Shown in pieces: positions 14,249 through 19,901 of a DNA stretch of 64,000 nt; the first letter of the stretch is position 1; each line of letters opens with the position of its first letter. The position numbers and the translations under genes were made by a program. The DNA comes from Rhodococcus sp. 1163. GTDB taxonomy: Bacteria; Actinomycetota; Actinomycetes; Mycobacteriales; Mycobacteriaceae. The DNA is taken from NCBI RefSeq assembly GCF_002091985.1, contig NZ_MKKX01000037.1, forward strand, positions 1-64,000, read 5' to 3'. Below the pieces are notes generated by a model. It was not told the DNA's origin, searched no databases, and saw nothing but the letters and a program-made list of their open reading frames with translations.

Positions 14249-15472
14249 GTGATCGTGACCGAGAAGCAGCGCACCGTCAGGGTCGTCGGACCCGACTTCC
14301 TACTCGCAGGCAGGTACCGACTCGCGTACAAGCTGGGTGGGGGCGGAATGGGCGCGGTCTGGCTCGCTCAGGACACGCTGCTCGACCGGAAAGTGGCCGT
14401 CAAACAGGTCACGTCCACTGCTCGCCTCAGCGAGCGCGCCGCACGCGAAGTGCGCAATCGAGCCATGCGTGAAGGCAGAATCGCAGCGCGACTGTCGAGC
14501 TTGCACGCCATCTCCATGCACGACGTCGCGATCGAAGATGGCGAGCCCTGGCTCGTGATGGAATACATGCCGTCGAGGAGCCTCGCGCAGGCACTCAACA
14601 CCGCCGAAACACTGCCACCGTACGAAGTTGCGCAGATCGGCGCTCAGGTCGCCGACGCACTCACCGAAGCGCATGAGGCCGGTATCGTCCATCGCGACAT
14701 CAAGCCGGGCAACATCCTGATCGCCGACCGCGGACGCACCCTCGGTGTCGTCAAGATCAGCGACTTCGGTATCTCGCGCGCCAAAGGTGATGTCGAAGAG
14801 TCGGATTCGAGTGTCATCACCGGAACTCCGGCCTATTTCGCTCCAGAAGTGGCCCGGGGACAGGATCCCACCGAAGCAAGTGACGTCTTCTCTCTCGGGG
14901 CGACGCTCTATACCGCGATCGAAGGCAAGCCGCCGTTCGACATCGACCAGGACTCCATTGCACTGCTGCATCGTGTGGCCAAGGGACAGATAATTCCACC
15001 CACTCGATGCGGTGACCTGACCGAGCCACTACTGCACATGCTCGAACCCGATCCTGCTCGCAGACCGACCATGGCTCAGGCACGCGACGAGATCATCCGA
15101 CATGCGATCAGCGGCCGGGCAAACATCGCCGGGCTACGTGGAGTCCCGGTGACCTCGGCCGGCGGGGTCGTTCCGGCCTGGGCTCATCGCTCCACCCCGG
15201 TATCGGAATCGCGGCGCCCTTCGCGAGAATTCGGAAACACGATCGCCGGCCTGCCTGCCGTTCGTTTCAGCGATCAAACCGATGCTCAGACACCGACGCC
15301 GTACGCTCCACCACCATTCGATCCGCCGCGGAAGAAGAACCCACTCGAGGTGGTACTCGATCGCATCGACGACATAGTCGACGACCGGATCGACGTCCCG
15401 CCCGAGGCCGTCCTTGCTGCGTTGATCGTCACCGTGGGACTCGTGATCATACTGATCATCGCCCTACTCTGA
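14249..15472 (+). CDS. Membrane-anchored Ser/Thr protein kinase (PknB class)
   Basis: This 407-residue Hanks-type kinase has a glycine-rich loop GGGGMGAVW near 27-35, the ATP-anchoring Lys52 (VAVKQV), the catalytic loop HRDIKPGN with Asp150, the DFG motif near 173 and the APE-type motif near 200. After the kinase domain (to about 285) comes a ~95-residue Pro-rich juxtamembrane linker, then one TM helix at the extreme C terminus (VLAALIVTVGLVIILIIALL region). There is essentially no extracellular sensor domain, so the signal must come from the membrane or partner proteins. GTG 14249 starts the gene; GTG 14255 is an alternative. It is divergent from imuA'. The adjacent PspC-type two-component operon ends 8 bp beyond it on the opposite strand. 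Confidence 0.93.
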   Translation: MIVTEKQRTVRVVGPDFLLAGRYRLAYKLGGGGMGAVWLAQDTLLDRKVAVKQVTSTARLSERAAREVRNRAMREGRIAARLSSLHAISMHDVAIEDGEPWLVMEYMPSRSLAQALNTAETLPPYEVAQIGAQVADALTEAHEAGIVHRDIKPGNILIADRGRTLGVVKISDFGISRAKGDVEESDSSVITGTPAYFAPEVARGQDPTEASDVFSLGATLYTAIEGKPPFDIDQDSIALLHRVAKGQIIPPTRCGDLTEPLLHMLEPDPARRPTMAQARDEIIRHAISGRANIAGLRGVPVTSAGGVVPAWAHRSTPVSESRRPSREFGNTIAGLPAVRFSDQTDAQTPTPYAPPPFDPPRKKNPLEVVLDRIDDIVDDRIDVPPEAVLAALIVTVGLVIILIIALL

Positions 15473-15480
15473 AAAAATGA

Positions 15481-16128
15481 TCAATCGATACGTCGCTTGT
15501 GAGCCCACCTGGTCAACGCGTTGCGATTGGACTGCTGGGTCTTACGCAGCACGTTCGAGGCATGGGTCTCGACGGTCTTCACCGAGATGAACAGGTCCTC
15601 GGCGATCTCACGGTAGGTATAACCACGCGCCAGCAGACGCAGAACCTCGAGCTCACGAGGGGTGAGTGAATCGAGTTCGGGATCGAGTGGCGGTTCCGGG
15701 GCATTCGACTTCCCAGTGAACGAGTCGAGCACGAAGCCTGCAAGACGCGGGGAGAACACGGCATCTCCACCGGCAACGCGTCGTACGCCGTCGGCGAGTT
15801 CGGACCCCGAGATCGTTTTCGTGACGTACCCCCGCGCACCTGCACGGATGACGGCGATCACGTCTTCGGCCGCGTCGGAGACCGACAACGCCAGACAGAC
15901 GGGACCAGCGGTGATGCGTCCGAGAACGGCGACGCCGCCGCCATCCGGCATGTGGACGTCGAGCAGCACGACATCGGGCTTCGTCGACTCGATACCGGCG
16001 ACCGCGTCGGCCACCCCGCCCGCTTCACCGACGACCTCGATGTCACTTTCCCGACCCAGCTCGGTGCGAACTCCGGAACGAAACACTGCATGATCGTCGA
16101 CGAGAAAGACACGAAAGGTGTCGGTCAC
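15481..16128 (-). CDS. NarL/LuxR-family response regulator, EsrR/LiaR-like
   Basis: This 215-residue regulator has a receiver domain (VDDH near 10-13, phospho-acceptor Asp57 in LLDVHMPDG, Thr/Lys switch residues near 85-104) and a LuxR-type helix-turn-helix from about 150 (LTPRELEVLRLLARG, then KTVETHASNVLRK). GTG 16128 overlaps the kinase stop by 4 bp (GTGA), so the pair is translationally coupled. The upstream kinase carries a PspC domain and a PspC/LiaF-like protein is encoded nearby, as in the Corynebacterium EsrISR and Firmicute LiaFSR envelope-stress systems. The likely target is the TCAGGG-N4-CCCTGA palindrome found ahead of both the kinase and the PspC/LiaF-like gene. The assignment to Esr is by domain logic, not by alignment. 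Confidence 0.9.
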   Translation of the reverse strand: MTDTFRVFLVDDHAVFRSGVRTELGRESDIEVVGEAGGVADAVAGIESTKPDVVLLDVHMPDGGGVAVLGRITAGPVCLALSVSDAAEDVIAVIRAGARGYVTKTISGSELADGVRRVAGGDAVFSPRLAGFVLDSFTGKSNAPEPPLDPELDSLTPRELEVLRLLARGYTYREIAEDLFISVKTVETHASNVLRKTQQSNRNALTRWAHKRRID

Positions 16129-17423
16129 CTGGGCTGCTCCTGCGGTGTCGGTTGGCGTATCGGCTCGGTCCGGCCGTTCTTCGAAGAGTTTGTCGATGAG
16201 TGCTCGCGGGGCATGAGAATGCGGACTTCGGTTCCCTTCCCCACATTCGAGCGTATCGAGACTTCACCGCCGCGTCGCTCGATTCTTCCCCGAATCGATT
16301 TGGCCAGTCCCTGACGGTCCATCGTTACGAGGTTCTCGTCGAATCCGCTGCCGCGATCACGAACGAACACGGTAACCCGCTCGGGCTCGGTCTCGGCGAA
16401 CAAATCGATGTTGACTTCGCCCGAATGCTTCGCCGCATTGACCAGCGCCTCGCGAGTCGCGCCGAGCAGCGCAGTGAAATGCTCTCGGGGCAAACCGGAA
16501 TCGGAATCTTCGAGCGCCAGCTGCACATCGCCGACCGTAATGGGACGCACCGTGACACCGTACTGGTCCTCGACCTCACCCGAGATCGTCTTCAATGCCT
16601 CGGCGAGGCTCGTGTGGTCGGCGTCGCGATCTTCGAACAACCACTTGCGCAGTTCGCGCTCCTGCCCGCGTGCCAATCGCATGACTTCCTGCGGATGATC
16701 CGACTGTTTCTGTATCAGCGCCAGTGTCTGCAACACCGAGTCGTGCAGGTGAGAGGCGATTTCCTCGCGTTCGTCGTTGCGAATGCGAGCAGACCTTTCG
16801 GCGTTCAGCGCCCGCCACATCCGCAGCCAGACCGGAACCGTCAGCAGCGCGGCACCGACCAGAGTGACGATCACTGCCAGCAACGACGAACGCACCGAGG
16901 CCAGGTCGACGCGAGCCAATACGACGACACCGAGTCCGAGGACGATCAGCGTTGCACCGCCGACCACACGTGCCCAACTGAGTACCGTCGGCTTCTTCGG
17001 CATACCGAGAATAGAACGCGGTCCCTCGGAATCGAATTCGCGCCAGACCAACGCCGCGCCGACGACGACGACCACTATCGGGGCGAGGACCGCCGCAGCA
17101 GTTCCGTCGAGCAGCCACGCCAATCCGGCGGCCAACCCGAGCCCAATGGCGGCTAGTCCGAAAGCTCGCTGTCGTTCGTCGCTACTCGGACGATCCACGT
17201 CCGTTCCGACCGGGCTGAAAATCCACAGGAGGCCGTACGCGAGGATTCCCGCCCCCGCCATGATCGCCAGCAATGCAAATGCAACGCGGACTTTGAACAC
17301 GTCCACCCCGAGATGGTCTGCCACACCACCTGCGACTCCGCCCACAATGCGTCCACCGCCACGCCGATGGAACTTGGCGGGCTCGTAGCTTCCGACGGAA
17401 GCGGGCGGGTCGACAGGGTGCAC
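16125..17423 (-). CDS. PspC-domain sensor histidine kinase, EsrS/LiaS-like
   Basis: This 432-residue membrane kinase begins with a PspC domain (about 13-70, GGVAGGVADHLGVD then a TM helix). Four further TM helices follow to about 205, then a NarX-type catalytic core: phosphoacceptor His227 in SHLHDSVLQ, N-box REALVNAAKHS and G-box DRGSGF. The frame is open to ATG 17459, but I place the start at GTG 17423. A -10-like CAGGAT lies 6 bases before it, and the 16-bp palindrome at 17459-17474 is then centred at -43.5, exactly as at the partner gene; a start at 17459 would put the operator inside the coding region. It overlaps its response regulator by 4 bp. PspC domains usually sense or transmit membrane stress. 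Confidence 0.9.
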   Translation of the reverse strand: MHPVDPPASVGSYEPAKFHRRGGGRIVGGVAGGVADHLGVDVFKVRVAFALLAIMAGAGILAYGLLWIFSPVGTDVDRPSSDERQRAFGLAAIGLGLAAGLAWLLDGTAAAVLAPIVVVVVGAALVWREFDSEGPRSILGMPKKPTVLSWARVVGGATLIVLGLGVVVLARVDLASVRSSLLAVIVTLVGAALLTVPVWLRMWRALNAERSARIRNDEREEIASHLHDSVLQTLALIQKQSDHPQEVMRLARGQERELRKWLFEDRDADHTSLAEALKTISGEVEDQYGVTVRPITVGDVQLALEDSDSGLPREHFTALLGATREALVNAAKHSGEVNIDLFAETEPERVTVFVRDRGSGFDENLVTMDRQGLAKSIRGRIERRGGEVSIRSNVGKGTEVRILMPREHSSTNSSKNGRTEPIRQPTPQEQPR

Positions 17424-17429
17424 GATTCG

Positions 17430-17435
17430 ATCCTG
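17430..17435 (-). promoter_or_regulatory. Predicted -10 element of the sensor kinase operon (leaderless)
   Basis: On the minus strand CAGGAT ends 6 bases before GTG 17423. This fits a -10 hexamer for a transcript that begins at the start codon. The equivalent element at the PspC/LiaF-like gene is CACGAT, 7 bases before its ATG. Confidence 0.5.
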
Positions 17436-17458
17436 GCACGAATCGACCATCCCGCGCA

Positions 17459-17474
17459 TCAGGGTCTCCCCTGA
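17459..17474. promoter_or_regulatory. Palindromic operator TCAGGG-N4-CCCTGA (kinase side)
   Basis: Arms TCAGGG (17459-17464) and CCCTGA (17469-17474) are perfect inverted repeats with spacer TCTC. The centre lies 43.5 bp upstream of GTG 17423. An identical pair of arms stands at 18242-18257 at the same distance from its gene. It is the likely binding site of the NarL-type regulator encoded downstream. Confidence 0.7.
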
Positions 17475-17477
17475 TCT

Positions 17478-18155
17478 CTAGGCAGTAGCAGCGCTCCATT
17501 CCGGTGCCCGCTCGGTTGTTGCCTCCGCCAGCGCTGCCTTCACGCCGTCTGTATCGAAGTCCTTTCCATACACGGGAGTACCTGGATGCTGACGCCACGA
17601 ATCCGCTAGCGCGCCGCCGTCGACGGGGTCGAAGCCCAACTGCTCGACGACGTCGAACACCACATCCTTGCCGGGTCCGTCGGCACCGGCGATAGGGAGC
17701 GCGATCCGACCTGCTGCACTCTTCGGCTGCCCCTTCTCCAGGAGGTGCTTCCAGTAGATTCCGTTGAACACCTTGACGACATCGGCACCGCGGGAGCCGA
17801 GATGCTCTGCTACCCAGACGCTTTCCGGCTTGCCGTTCTCGATGTCGGCGATAAGGCCGTCACGTTGCTGAGGGTAGTAGTTGTTGGTCTCGATGATCGG
17901 GGCACCATCTTTGGCGGCGTCGACGATGCCGGCGGCCAGGTCGGGAACGTTTTTCTGTGGGATGCTCACGATCACCAGATCGGCATCGAGAGCCGCTTCC
18001 GAACTCCACACTGCTTGTGCGCCGGTCTCGGCTGCCAGCTCGGACAAAGTCTCAGGAGACCTCGAGTTCGATACCCGAACCTCGTGCCCGAGCGCGCTGA
18101 GCCGCCGTGTCAATGTGCCACCGATGGATCCTGCGCCGATGATTCCGATCTTCAC
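17478..18155 (-). CDS. NADPH:F420 oxidoreductase-like Rossmann protein
   Basis: This 225-residue soluble protein has an N-terminal GIIGAGSIGG nucleotide-binding loop, followed by the HEVRVSNSRSPE segment where Ser/Arg residues favour NADP(H). It belongs to the F420-dependent NADP reductase/NADP-oxidoreductase family, which moves hydride between NADPH and F420 or a related acceptor; true F420 specificity cannot be decided here. I start at GTG 18155 because AAGGAG sits 8 bases upstream; the longer frame to 18200 lacks a site. It lies between the divergent envelope-stress genes and has its own ribosome site. The kinase promoter starts right after its stop. Confidence 0.85.
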   Translation of the reverse strand: MKIGIIGAGSIGGTLTRRLSALGHEVRVSNSRSPETLSELAAETGAQAVWSSEAALDADLVIVSIPQKNVPDLAAGIVDAAKDGAPIIETNNYYPQQRDGLIADIENGKPESVWVAEHLGSRGADVVKVFNGIYWKHLLEKGQPKSAAGRIALPIAGADGPGKDVVFDVVEQLGFDPVDGGALADSWRQHPGTPVYGKDFDTDGVKAALAEATTERAPEWSAATA

Positions 18156-18241
18156 TTCGGGAACTCCTTCGTTATGCGAATGACTTTCTGTCAAGCACAA
18201 CCTCCATCGAAGGCCGATTCATTCCTACCCCGGCGTGAATA

Positions 18242-18257
18242 TCAGGGCTATCCCTGA
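18242..18257. promoter_or_regulatory. Palindromic operator TCAGGG-N4-CCCTGA (PspC/LiaF-like side)
   Basis: Arms TCAGGG (18242-18247) and CCCTGA (18252-18257) flank spacer CTAT. The centre is 43.5 bp upstream of ATG 18293. Arms and distance are identical to those at the kinase operon, and the placement is just upstream of or overlapping the -35 region, as for an activator. Confidence 0.7.
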
Positions 18258-18279
18258 TGTGCTCGACACAGCAACCCGC

Positions 18280-18285
18280 CACGAT
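18280..18285 (+). promoter_or_regulatory. Predicted -10 element of the PspC/LiaF-like gene (leaderless)
   Basis: CACGAT ends 7 bases before ATG 18293, the spacing expected for a leaderless transcript, which is common in actinobacteria. No ribosome binding site precedes ATG 18293, which supports this reading. Confidence 0.5.
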
Positions 18286-18292
18286 GGTCTAC

Positions 18293-19660
18293 ATGAGCAA
18301 CGCAACCGTCTCCGAGCAGCTCCAACAGATGTGGCGCACCCGCCCCTACCGATTGCCGCAGCGAGGCCACATCGCGGGTGTCGCGGCCGGCATCGGATAC
18401 CGCTACGGCGTCGACCCTGTTCTCGTTCGAGTCGCGCTCGTCGTCGGGACGATCTTCGGCGGCGCCGGAATCGTTCTGTATCTCGCCGCATGGTTGCTGT
18501 TGAGCAAACCGGGTGATTCCGCCTCTGCGGCACAATCACTGGTCGGCAGGGGCACCAGTACGAAAACGATCGTTCTGGTAGTTGCGCTGGTCATCGCCGT
18601 CACGACGATCGGTCCCGCCGGATTCGGTCTCGACGGTTCAGGTCTGGTCAGTACGCTCGCTCTCCTCGGCGGCCTGTGGCTTCTGCACCAGCGTCGTCCC
18701 GAGCCGCCGGAGTTTCTCCCGGACGGCTCCACCGCTTATCCCCTAGGCGGAGCCTCGTCCTACGCACAGTCGAGCTTTCCGATCTCCTTCGACACGCCGT
18801 ACAACGCCTCTTCCCAGCCCAACTCCTGGGGAGCAGCGCAGCATCGTCCTCCGCAGTACGACGCCGGTCGAGGCGGATACACCCCTTACACGACGCTCCC
18901 CAAGAGTTATGTCCCTACTCCACCGCCGGCGACGGGCGTCGATCTCACCAAATCCACTCCCCCGCAGGGTCTTTCCGAGCCACCGTCACCACCCTCTTGG
19001 GATCCACTCGGAGTCGCTCCGTTCGCCTGGGACCTACCCGAACCCTCAGCACCACGTACGCCGGAGATGATCGAGAAGAAGAAGCACTCTCGGTGGACAT
19101 CGAGCTTCATCGGACTCGCGTTGCTGGCTGCGGCTCTTACCGGAGCCATTGCCGCAAGCAGTGAATCGATGTGGCTCACCCCGGCGCGGGTCGGCGCAGT
19201 CGCCCTCGCGGTGGTCGCGACCGGCTTGATTCTGGGCGCGTTCCTGCGAAAGGGTTACGGACTACTAGTCGTGACCGGCCCGTTGGTGGCATTCGTGGTG
19301 TTCGCGTCGATAATCGGACCCATCTCCTTCGACAGCCAGTACGCGGGTCAACAGGAGTATCGACCGACGACGATGGCAGATCTGCAATCCGAATACACAG
19401 TGCAGGGTGGCGATCTCCAACTCGATCTGCGAGGTCTGGACCTCACCGAGGACCGAACGATCTCTGTCGACGTCACGGCAGGAAACGCGAAAATCTTCGT
19501 CCCCGACGGGATGAACATCCGAACCGACTGCACGTCCGTGGCGTCCAGCACGAAGTGCGGCCCCACCGGTGTGCAGCAAGGCAATTCGCCCGACAACACG
19601 TCGATCCTGACCATAGAAGGATCAGCGCGGGCCGGCAATCTGGAGGTACTCCGTGGCTGA
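18293..19660 (+). CDS. PspC-domain membrane protein with LiaF-like C terminus (EsrI-like)
   Basis: This 455-residue protein starts with a PspC domain (about 10-72: AGVAAGIGYRYGVD, then a TM helix). Two more TM helices follow, then a ~130-residue Pro/Ser/Tyr-rich cytoplasmic linker, three TM helices (about 265-345) and a C-terminal soluble domain ending in repeated strands (VDVTAGNAKIFVP, then GNLEVLRG) like the LiaF C-terminal fold. In LiaFSR the LiaF protein inhibits its kinase, and in C. glutamicum EsrI plays that role, so an inhibitor or stress-effector function is inferred. ATG 18293 (MSNATVSEQ) fits the leaderless promoter; in-frame ATGs at 18257 and 18284 fall in the operator or -10. 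It overlaps the next gene by 8 bp. Confidence 0.85.
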   Translation: MSNATVSEQLQQMWRTRPYRLPQRGHIAGVAAGIGYRYGVDPVLVRVALVVGTIFGGAGIVLYLAAWLLLSKPGDSASAAQSLVGRGTSTKTIVLVVALVIAVTTIGPAGFGLDGSGLVSTLALLGGLWLLHQRRPEPPEFLPDGSTAYPLGGASSYAQSSFPISFDTPYNASSQPNSWGAAQHRPPQYDAGRGGYTPYTTLPKSYVPTPPPATGVDLTKSTPPQGLSEPPSPPSWDPLGVAPFAWDLPEPSAPRTPEMIEKKKHSRWTSSFIGLALLAAALTGAIAASSESMWLTPARVGAVALAVVATGLILGAFLRKGYGLLVVTGPLVAFVVFASIIGPISFDSQYAGQQEYRPTTMADLQSEYTVQGGDLQLDLRGLDLTEDRTISVDVTAGNAKIFVPDGMNIRTDCTSVASSTKCGPTGVQQGNSPDNTSILTIEGSARAGNLEVLRG

Positions 19661-19901
19661 GTCCTGGCAGTACGGCGACAGCGACGACGACACCACTCTG
19701 GAGAATCGCGCTCGAACACGGCCGTCCGCTCTGCTTTTCCTCGTCGGACTCGCGGCAGCAATCGTCAGCGTCTGCGCACTGATCGGCCCGAGCGCGCTCG
19801 TCACGCTCGGCACCGTGCAGTTCCGCTGGGTATTCGTGGTGGCGGCGATCGTGGTAGGGACGGTACTACTACTTGCCCCTGGACGAAAAGGTAAGCAGTA
19901 G
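19653..19901 (+). CDS. Small two-helix membrane protein
   Basis: This 82-residue protein has an acidic N terminus (ESWQYGDSDDDTTLEN) and two hydrophobic helices at about 27-47 and 57-75, then a basic GRKGKQ tail. Both ends are probably cytoplasmic. GTG 19653 has GGAGG 7-8 bases upstream and overlaps the 3' end of the PspC/LiaF-like gene by 8 bp, so it is co-translated with it. I do not recognise a family. The overlap makes it a probable fourth member of the envelope-stress system. Confidence 0.75.
   Translation: MAESWQYGDSDDDTTLENRARTRPSALLFLVGLAAAIVSVCALIGPSALVTLGTVQFRWVFVVAAIVVGTVLLLAPGRKGKQ

Follow-up and report, generated by a model that had tools for sequence, protein, structure and literature searches.

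Two kinds of described system stand closest to the locus analysed here. In the accessible portions of PMC6975037, PMC9960051 and PMC9239133, EsrISR of Corynebacterium glutamicum is a three-component envelope-stress system in which PspC serves as the input module of the kinase, and it represses nlpC under stress, where MtrA and GlxR also act. Parts of PMC6975037 further state that EsrI inhibits the kinase, and that esrI belongs to the Esr regulon and is upregulated under secretion stress. Excerpts of Ravi et al. 2024 (PMC11237479) describe PspA-free Lia-like systems of Actinobacteria, which combine PspC-HISKIN and REC-HTH proteins and have their promoter region in common with a PspC gene on the opposite strand; this PspC gene may end in a toastrack domain, of which 4QRK is named as an example. 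The window studied here, a stretch of 64,000 nucleotides (nt) from Rhodococcus sp. 1163 (contig NZ_MKKX01000037.1, positions 1 to 64,000), holds a system that by its sequence is of this EsrISR or PspA-free Lia-like kind, an already known one. In it, the palindrome TCAGGG-N4-CCCTGA occurs twice, each time centred 43.5 base pairs (bp) before a gene start. Our best explanation, which we hold to be probable, is an EsrISR-like envelope-stress system in which the NarL-type regulator uses this palindrome as its operator and activates leaderless promoters.

Two identically placed operators in the window

A sequence-only reading of this DNA had placed both palindromes at equal distance from two leaderless starts, each start being preceded by a -10-like hexamer and no ribosome site. 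The coordinates of both palindromes were confirmed without a mismatch, their centres gave the same spacing on both sides, and the hexamers were found where they had been placed; no Shine-Dalgarno sequence was seen between hexamer and start at either promoter. The features of the locus are as follows (ORF, open reading frame; aa, amino acids).

17459..17474, no strand: operator 1, TCAGGG-N4-CCCTGA, zero mismatches, centre 17466.5, 43.5 bp before GTG 17423
18242..18257, no strand: operator 2, TCAGGG-N4-CCCTGA, zero mismatches, centre 18249.5, 43.5 bp before ATG 18293
17430..17435, minus strand: putative -10 element CAGGAT, 6 nt before GTG 17423
18280..18285, plus strand: putative -10 element CACGAT, 7 nt before ATG 18293
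15481..16128, minus strand: NarL/LiaR-type response regulator, the proposed operator binder; receiver and GerE helix-turn-helix (Pfam Response_reg 4.2e-19, GerE 3.8e-18)
16125..17423, minus strand: PspC-domain sensor histidine kinase (Pfam PspC 1e-15, HATPase_c 1.8e-8), start corrected to GTG 17423
17478..18155, minus strand: NADP/F420-type oxidoreductase between both operators (Pfam F420_oxidored 1.7e-19), GTG start, AAGGAG ribosome site
18293..19660, plus strand: PspC-domain membrane protein, EsrI/LiaF-like partner (pspC), start corrected to ATG 18293
19653..19901, plus strand: 82-aa ORF that overlaps the end of the pspC gene and is probably co-transcribed with it

Matching arms together with matching phasing had been judged unlikely to arise by chance. 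For the window pair alone this was too strong, as the pair is only mildly unusual, suggestive rather than decisive: in 40 order-2 Markov simulations, a same-arm 6-N(2-8)-6 pair within 1 kb appeared with a mean of 0.125 and a maximum of 1, and the exact pattern appeared in none. With up to three mismatches allowed, the window held 18 matches, fewer than the shuffle mean of 31.67. It is conservation that removes chance. Across 37 genomes of the genus, the exact pattern was found 74 times, against 3 times for the reversed pattern, and 71 of the 74 sites lie at four gene families. Together with the permuted-arm control described below, this rejects chance alone as an explanation.

Conservation of the phased promoter in the genus and the family

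In the source genome (G000, 4.46 Mb in 43 contigs), a genome-wide motif search returned three exact sites, all centred 42.5-43.5 bp before a start. The third (C13:32550-32565) precedes a 77-aa ORF (L001:1551-1784), its centre 42.5 bp from the ATG and with CAGACT 6 nt before this ATG, and it has TCCCTGATGTGCTCGAC in common with the pspC site; the 77-aa family gave no significant match in Pfam or NCBIfam. Another site, with a single mismatch (C17:418685), has its centre 44.5 bp ahead of the ATG of a gene for an ABC ATPase, which is followed by a MacB/FtsX-type permease gene. The earlier reading had noted neither this site nor the third exact one. For this exporter, no NCBIfam cutoff was reached among the 25 matches listed. 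A fifth, weak site lies 43.5 bp before the gene for a small PspC protein (C18:400410), with 5 mismatches out of 12 and tied with one other place. The sites precede envelope-related genes (kinase operon, PspC, MacB/FtsX-type ABC), which supports, at the level of sequence, the regulon claimed earlier. Two other one-mismatch sites (C18:97313 and C38:28208) have no ORF of 50 aa or more in phase, and among nine of the 134 two-mismatch sites, three were in phase with TTG-started ORFs only and were not counted as support.

Overall, 30 of the 37 genus genomes carry exact sites. Most of these sites (56 of the 74) belong to the kinase/pspC locus, with both present in 27 genomes and one each in G004 and G025. 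The ABC ATPase gene accounts for 11, all at 44.5 bp, and the 77-aa family for four (at 42.5, 44.5, 42.5 and 43.5 bp). Three fit no member (L078, L083 at 32.5 bp, and L093), the last adjoining what by eye appears to be a tRNA. All seven genomes without an exact site have the kinase; a degenerate kinase-side site is in phase in five of them, in G035 (L139) the kinase-side site is out of phase and the pspC-side site in phase, and G018 (L138), whose contig begins inside the kinase, was not judged. The other members followed the same pattern. A site with 0-2 mismatches lies at 43.5 or 44.5 bp in 28 of the 30 best-hit loci for the ABC gene (30 of the 37 genomes), the site being decayed in L119 and L120. 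Homologues of the 77-aa protein exist in 10 of the 37 genomes, seven of them with a site in phase; those at L128, L131 and L134/L135 are without one. Of the 37, 34 encode the small PspC protein; when the best palindromes of a 100-bp stretch were taken at 30 of its loci, an in-phase place was one of them in 28, also without the tie-break that favours phase (18 times as the sole best).

Further genes lie near the palindrome in relatives. In other genus genomes (L213, L220, L221 and others), a small membrane protein (MFWKVLGFIVLIWIALALLG...) has the operator upstream and a short leader; it is absent from the strong model matches in the source genome, where no search aimed at this protein was made. 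A leaderless membrane protein is another regulon candidate in relatives. A deoxyribonuclease IV gene (L109:660-1424) is divergent from the ABC operon and has a common operator region with it, and in relatives the palindrome lies 30.5-31.5 bp from a possible deoxyribonuclease IV start.

We described the promoter by a model, R1, built from a 51-row alignment in which 36 kinase/pspC rows had been prefiltered for A-11 and T-7, and 15 ABC and small-protein rows had not. A-11 and T-7 occur in all 51 aligned promoters, the 36 prefiltered ones included, and A-8 in 39. Most of the information lies in the arms with their flank (columns 4-9 and 14-21), the -10 element and the start codon, while columns 22-40 carry at most 0.4 bits and no conserved -35 element is present in the alignment. 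The operator has an extended 18-bp form, ATCAGGG-N4-CCCTGAT. The -10 element, some 12 bp upstream of the start codon, ends 6-7 nt before it, with no ribosome site in between, which in sequence is the signature of leaderless genes. According to the accessible parts of PMC3160421 and PMC3890552, Actinobacteria commonly have leaderless genes preceded by TANNNT at a distance of about 12 bp, and in C. glutamicum 33% of the mRNAs lack a leader. In the source genome, R1 found the first four sites at E values of 8.6e-6 or better and nothing else below 0.05; the four fit by construction, because all of them are training rows. The next-best match (E 0.056, L222) has no start in phase.

The survey of the wider family (Mycobacteriaceae in the GTDB sense) took one genome from each of 30 other genera, with a kinase threshold of E 1e-40 or better. 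The kinase was found in 26 of the 30. Among these 26 rows, the pspC-side operator (up to three mismatches) lies 42.5-44.5 bp before the pspC start in 25, and the kinase-side operator is in phase in 19 (42.5-45.5 bp; up to three mismatches with N4, up to one with N5 or N6). In G038, a family genome of 2.3 Mb whose kinase has 43% identity, both operators are in phase. One of the 26 other-genus loci, L147 (G058), has a pspC promoter identical to a training row (near-copy L016). R1 matched in 26 of the 30 genomes at E 0.05, and the four without a match are the same four without the kinase. From a longer list of off-locus R1 matches, we selected 19 for examination. The ABC ATPase named above accounts for 10 of them and PspC proteins for three; the rest lead to one DUF4870 membrane protein, two large membrane proteins, one protein that is oxidoreductase-like by eye, and nothing clear in two cases. 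A label of MMPL for the genes at G045 and G049 was also given by eye, and Pfam on 75 residues did not confirm it.

Phasing was compared between true and permuted arms in 67 rows, which hold near-copies (58 of 64 pspC picks and 40 of 44 kinase picks are distinct). With up to two mismatches, N4 and 42.5-44.5 bp, the true arms were found in 59 rows on the pspC side and 34 on the kinase side; 40 permuted arms averaged 0.6 and 0.175, respectively. Among the permuted arms, TCGGGA did best, with 16 pspC rows at up to two mismatches; it resembles degenerate real sites. The phasing survey itself used a window of 39.5-46.5 bp and preferred sites bearing a hexamer, a preference that the permuted-arm test did not have; 105 of its 108 picks carry A-11 and T-7, and a check of the PspC start region showed its picks to be wrong in kinase rows L155 and L165 and pspC row L167. 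Side peaks in the phase scan at 34.5 bp (11 pspC rows), 52.5 bp (8) and 61.5 bp (10 kinase rows) are interpreted by us as a second start codon or the other operator at the locus concerned. On re-examination of 26 kinase rows, 15 had arms with 0-1 mismatches (12 of them perfect) around a 5-bp spacer, centred 43-45 bp before the start, and the same form is found on the pspC sides of L017, L028, L029 and L032. The rows with a 5-bp spacer on either or both of the kinase and pspC sides (L016-L020, L022, L028, L029, L031, L032 and L034) include R. opacus, R. jostii, R. globerulus and R. yananensis.

Corrected gene starts and the inserted oxidoreductase gene

In the window, an ATG is fused to the right arm of each operator (17459 and 18257), and it is in frame with the downstream start only at the 43.5-bp spacing. 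In relatives with a spacing of 42.5 or 44.5 bp, the palindrome-fused ATG falls into another frame, and in several a stop intervenes (for example L010 and L012 on the kinase side; L007-L009, L011, L013 and L015 on the pspC side), and the downstream start holds its place after the -10 element. Because these frame-breaking spacings spare the downstream start, GTG 17423 and ATG 18293 are very likely the real starts, and the upstream ATGs are ruled out by frame in the relatives. The correction of both gene starts proposed earlier therefore stands on strong ground. One pspC row (L026) was mispicked in the frame test and correct in the phasing survey.

The two operators do not always have a gene between them. 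They lie 50-84 bp apart in one intergenic region in nine rows (L013, L014, L021, L023-L027 and L030), and a further 13 rows with 11 different kinases, the window being one of the 13, have an F420-type oxidoreductase gene with its own ribosome site between them. The earlier reading had not noted this separation by a clade-specific gene. In the window, this gene splits the shared divergent promoter region, which is typical of such systems and not a defining trait. On the kinase tree of 68 rows, all oxidoreductase rows fall into one clade of 15 (support 100/99) and none outside it. Most simply, this pattern would need two changes, one gain and one loss at L013; L138 of this clade was left unjudged for its truncated contig. 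Each operator keeps the distance to its own gene despite the insertion. The clade offers a natural test of whether each gene is served by its own operator.

Proposed regulation, rival explanations and known systems

The palindrome is most likely the operator of the phosphorylated regulator. The earlier proposal of the neighbouring NarL-type regulator as the likely binder is supported by the sequence; that it binds, and that the sensor operon is positively autoregulated, we infer, and likewise the direction of control, the dependence on phosphorylation and the transcript ends. In the proposed mechanism, the phosphorylated regulator would bind TCAGGG-N4-CCCTGA, which would replace the -35 element. 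The centre of this operator lies about 43 bp ahead of a start codon at which transcription would also begin, and a CANNAT -10 element follows at about 31 bp from that centre. By binding, the regulator would recruit RNA polymerase in a class II-type activation, and leaderless mRNAs would result. Activation of the sensor operon would then create positive feedback. Activation of the PspC partner might add a delayed negative feedback, if the partner is an inhibitor like EsrI, since it would then inhibit the kinase as EsrI does. Further targets may be the MacB/FtsX-type ABC exporter, the 77-aa protein and, through its weak site, the small PspC protein.

Several observations weigh against this explanation. 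The -10 element departs from the TANNNT consensus, with C (33 of the 51 rows) or A (15 rows) at position -12. At L167, which has the operator and hexamer, a frame of only 7 codons begins at the in-phase ATG and the start of the pspC gene lies further downstream, so that this promoter is leadered; five ABC genes of other genera also seem leadered (G054, G056, G058, G061 and G063). No kinase-side operator was found within the limits in 7 of the 26 family rows (L155, L162, L164, L166, L168, L169 and L170), L166 having a one-mismatch site at 46.5 bp and L168 a three-mismatch N5 site at 43.0 bp. The 5- and 6-bp spacers in some genera mean that the geometry is not one fixed form, and the small-PspC sites carry 3-5 mismatches out of 12. 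Finally, part of the co-occurrence of kinase and R1 matches is built in, since the kinase locus itself contributes two of the promoters.

The main rival keeps the neighbouring regulator as the binder and assigns it repression, or repression as well as activation, which stress would relieve. The operator covers the -35 region, and a repressor would sit in the same place, which also counts against activation. Regulators centred near -42 usually activate, and this we set against repression. Activator-dependent promoters are expected to lack a conserved -35 element and a T at -12, and the promoters here lack both. Known systems bear on both sides: EsrISR represses nlpC under stress in the portions of PMC6975037, PMC9960051 and PMC9239133 noted above, so a family member can repress, and esrI is upregulated as part of its own regulon in the parts of PMC6975037 cited with it. 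Altogether, we regard repression as unlikely.

Less likely still is another transcription factor that binds the palindrome and controls an envelope regulon to which this two-component operon belongs. The sequence alone does not prove the binder, and MtrA and GlxR do act at nlpC in the same excerpts. Nevertheless, the four kinase-less genomes among the 30 have no R1 match at E 0.05, off-locus sites included, and this co-occurrence favours the cognate regulator over another factor, as does the concentration of exact sites at the kinase and pspC genes. It is most improbable that the palindromes act in RNA instead, as hairpins or as terminators such as one closing the oxidoreductase transcript at 17478: operator 1 does lie 3 bases beyond the end of the oxidoreductase ORF, but the palindrome is conserved where this gene is absent, has no T-run, stands upstream of the -10 element and keeps the same phase before unrelated genes.

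With activation by the neighbouring regulator as the preferred explanation, we lean towards a broader rule. The family would use one hard-wired promoter form for its PspA-free Lia/Esr response, namely ATCAGGG-N4/5-CCCTGAT about 42.5-45 bp from a start codon at which transcription begins as well, the -10 element keeping only A-11 and T-7. The core regulon would comprise the sensor operon, the PspC/toastrack partner, one MacB/FtsX-type ABC exporter and small PspC proteins, and one clade has its shared divergent promoter split by a gene insertion with the phase kept. If this is true, the position of the operator alone predicts starts and regulon members in most kinase-bearing genomes of the family: a short operator at a nearly fixed distance gives a target list and corrected gene starts for each genome. 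It would also link the conserved ABC exporter and the small PspC proteins to envelope stress, and the operator promoters would be ready reporter promoters. Among the literature matches listed, covered by title and the start of the abstract and with the primary EsrISR and MacRS papers outside that scope, there was no TCAGGG-N4-CCCTGA operator and nothing on which promoters respond in this family outside Corynebacterium.

The genes of the locus place it among the known systems. The regulator and kinase ORFs overlap at 16125-16128 and form an operon of a REC-HTH protein with its kinase, in which a PspC domain is fused to a histidine kinase of the NarL class; HisKA_3 reached 19.7 bits, under the Pfam cutoff of 24. 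By sequence, the solved structures closest to the regulator are DevR, VraR and NarL. The pspC gene (18293-19660, plus strand) is divergent from the kinase gene on the minus strand, with one gene between. Residues 346-455 of its product form a predicted toastrack-like beta domain, with 4QRK as the best fold match (by VIA-align only), so that the modelled partner ends as some members do; LiaF-like_C reached 19.8 bits against a Pfam gathering cutoff of 29, the predicted fold still being toastrack-like. The remaining VIA-align rows are helical matches around residues 262-345 and carry little meaning. The 82-aa ORF had no match in Pfam or NCBIfam at E 0.001, and no PspA or LiaH was present among six neighbouring proteins scanned with Pfam. 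A Ser/Thr protein kinase gene (14249-15472) is convergent with the regulator gene.

Among the better-known systems, LiaFSR and VraTSR of Firmicutes have in common with this locus the logic of a membrane inhibitor with a NarL-type kinase and regulator and the toastrack-type C-terminus of the partner, and VraR and NarL are among the sequence relatives of the regulator. By contrast, the present locus has LiaF-like_C under the cutoff, no PspA/LiaH in the six neighbours, a PspC-fused kinase and leaderless-type promoters. MacS of Streptomyces MacRS is the top NCBIfam match of the kinase, at 107.7 bits far under the cutoff of 300. According to a review, the MacRS regulator has a known consensus sequence. 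The MacRS site is a 16-bp palindrome with an arm sequence other than TCAGGG. The PspA-free Lia-like systems, as excerpted, agree in the make-up of kinase and regulator, the opposite-strand PspC gene and the toastrack of the 4QRK type, and differ from the clade of the window in that their shared promoter region is here split by a gene; the excerpts name no operator, gene start or regulon for them. EsrI is itself PspC-like. With EsrISR, in the portions of the sources noted above, the locus shares the PspC input of the kinase, the three-component make-up and an inhibitor gene within the regulon; it differs in the oxidoreductase gene between the promoters and in its predicted regulon of ABC exporter, 77-aa protein and small PspC protein. 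The parts are familiar, and what is not familiar is the completeness and reach of the promoter rule.

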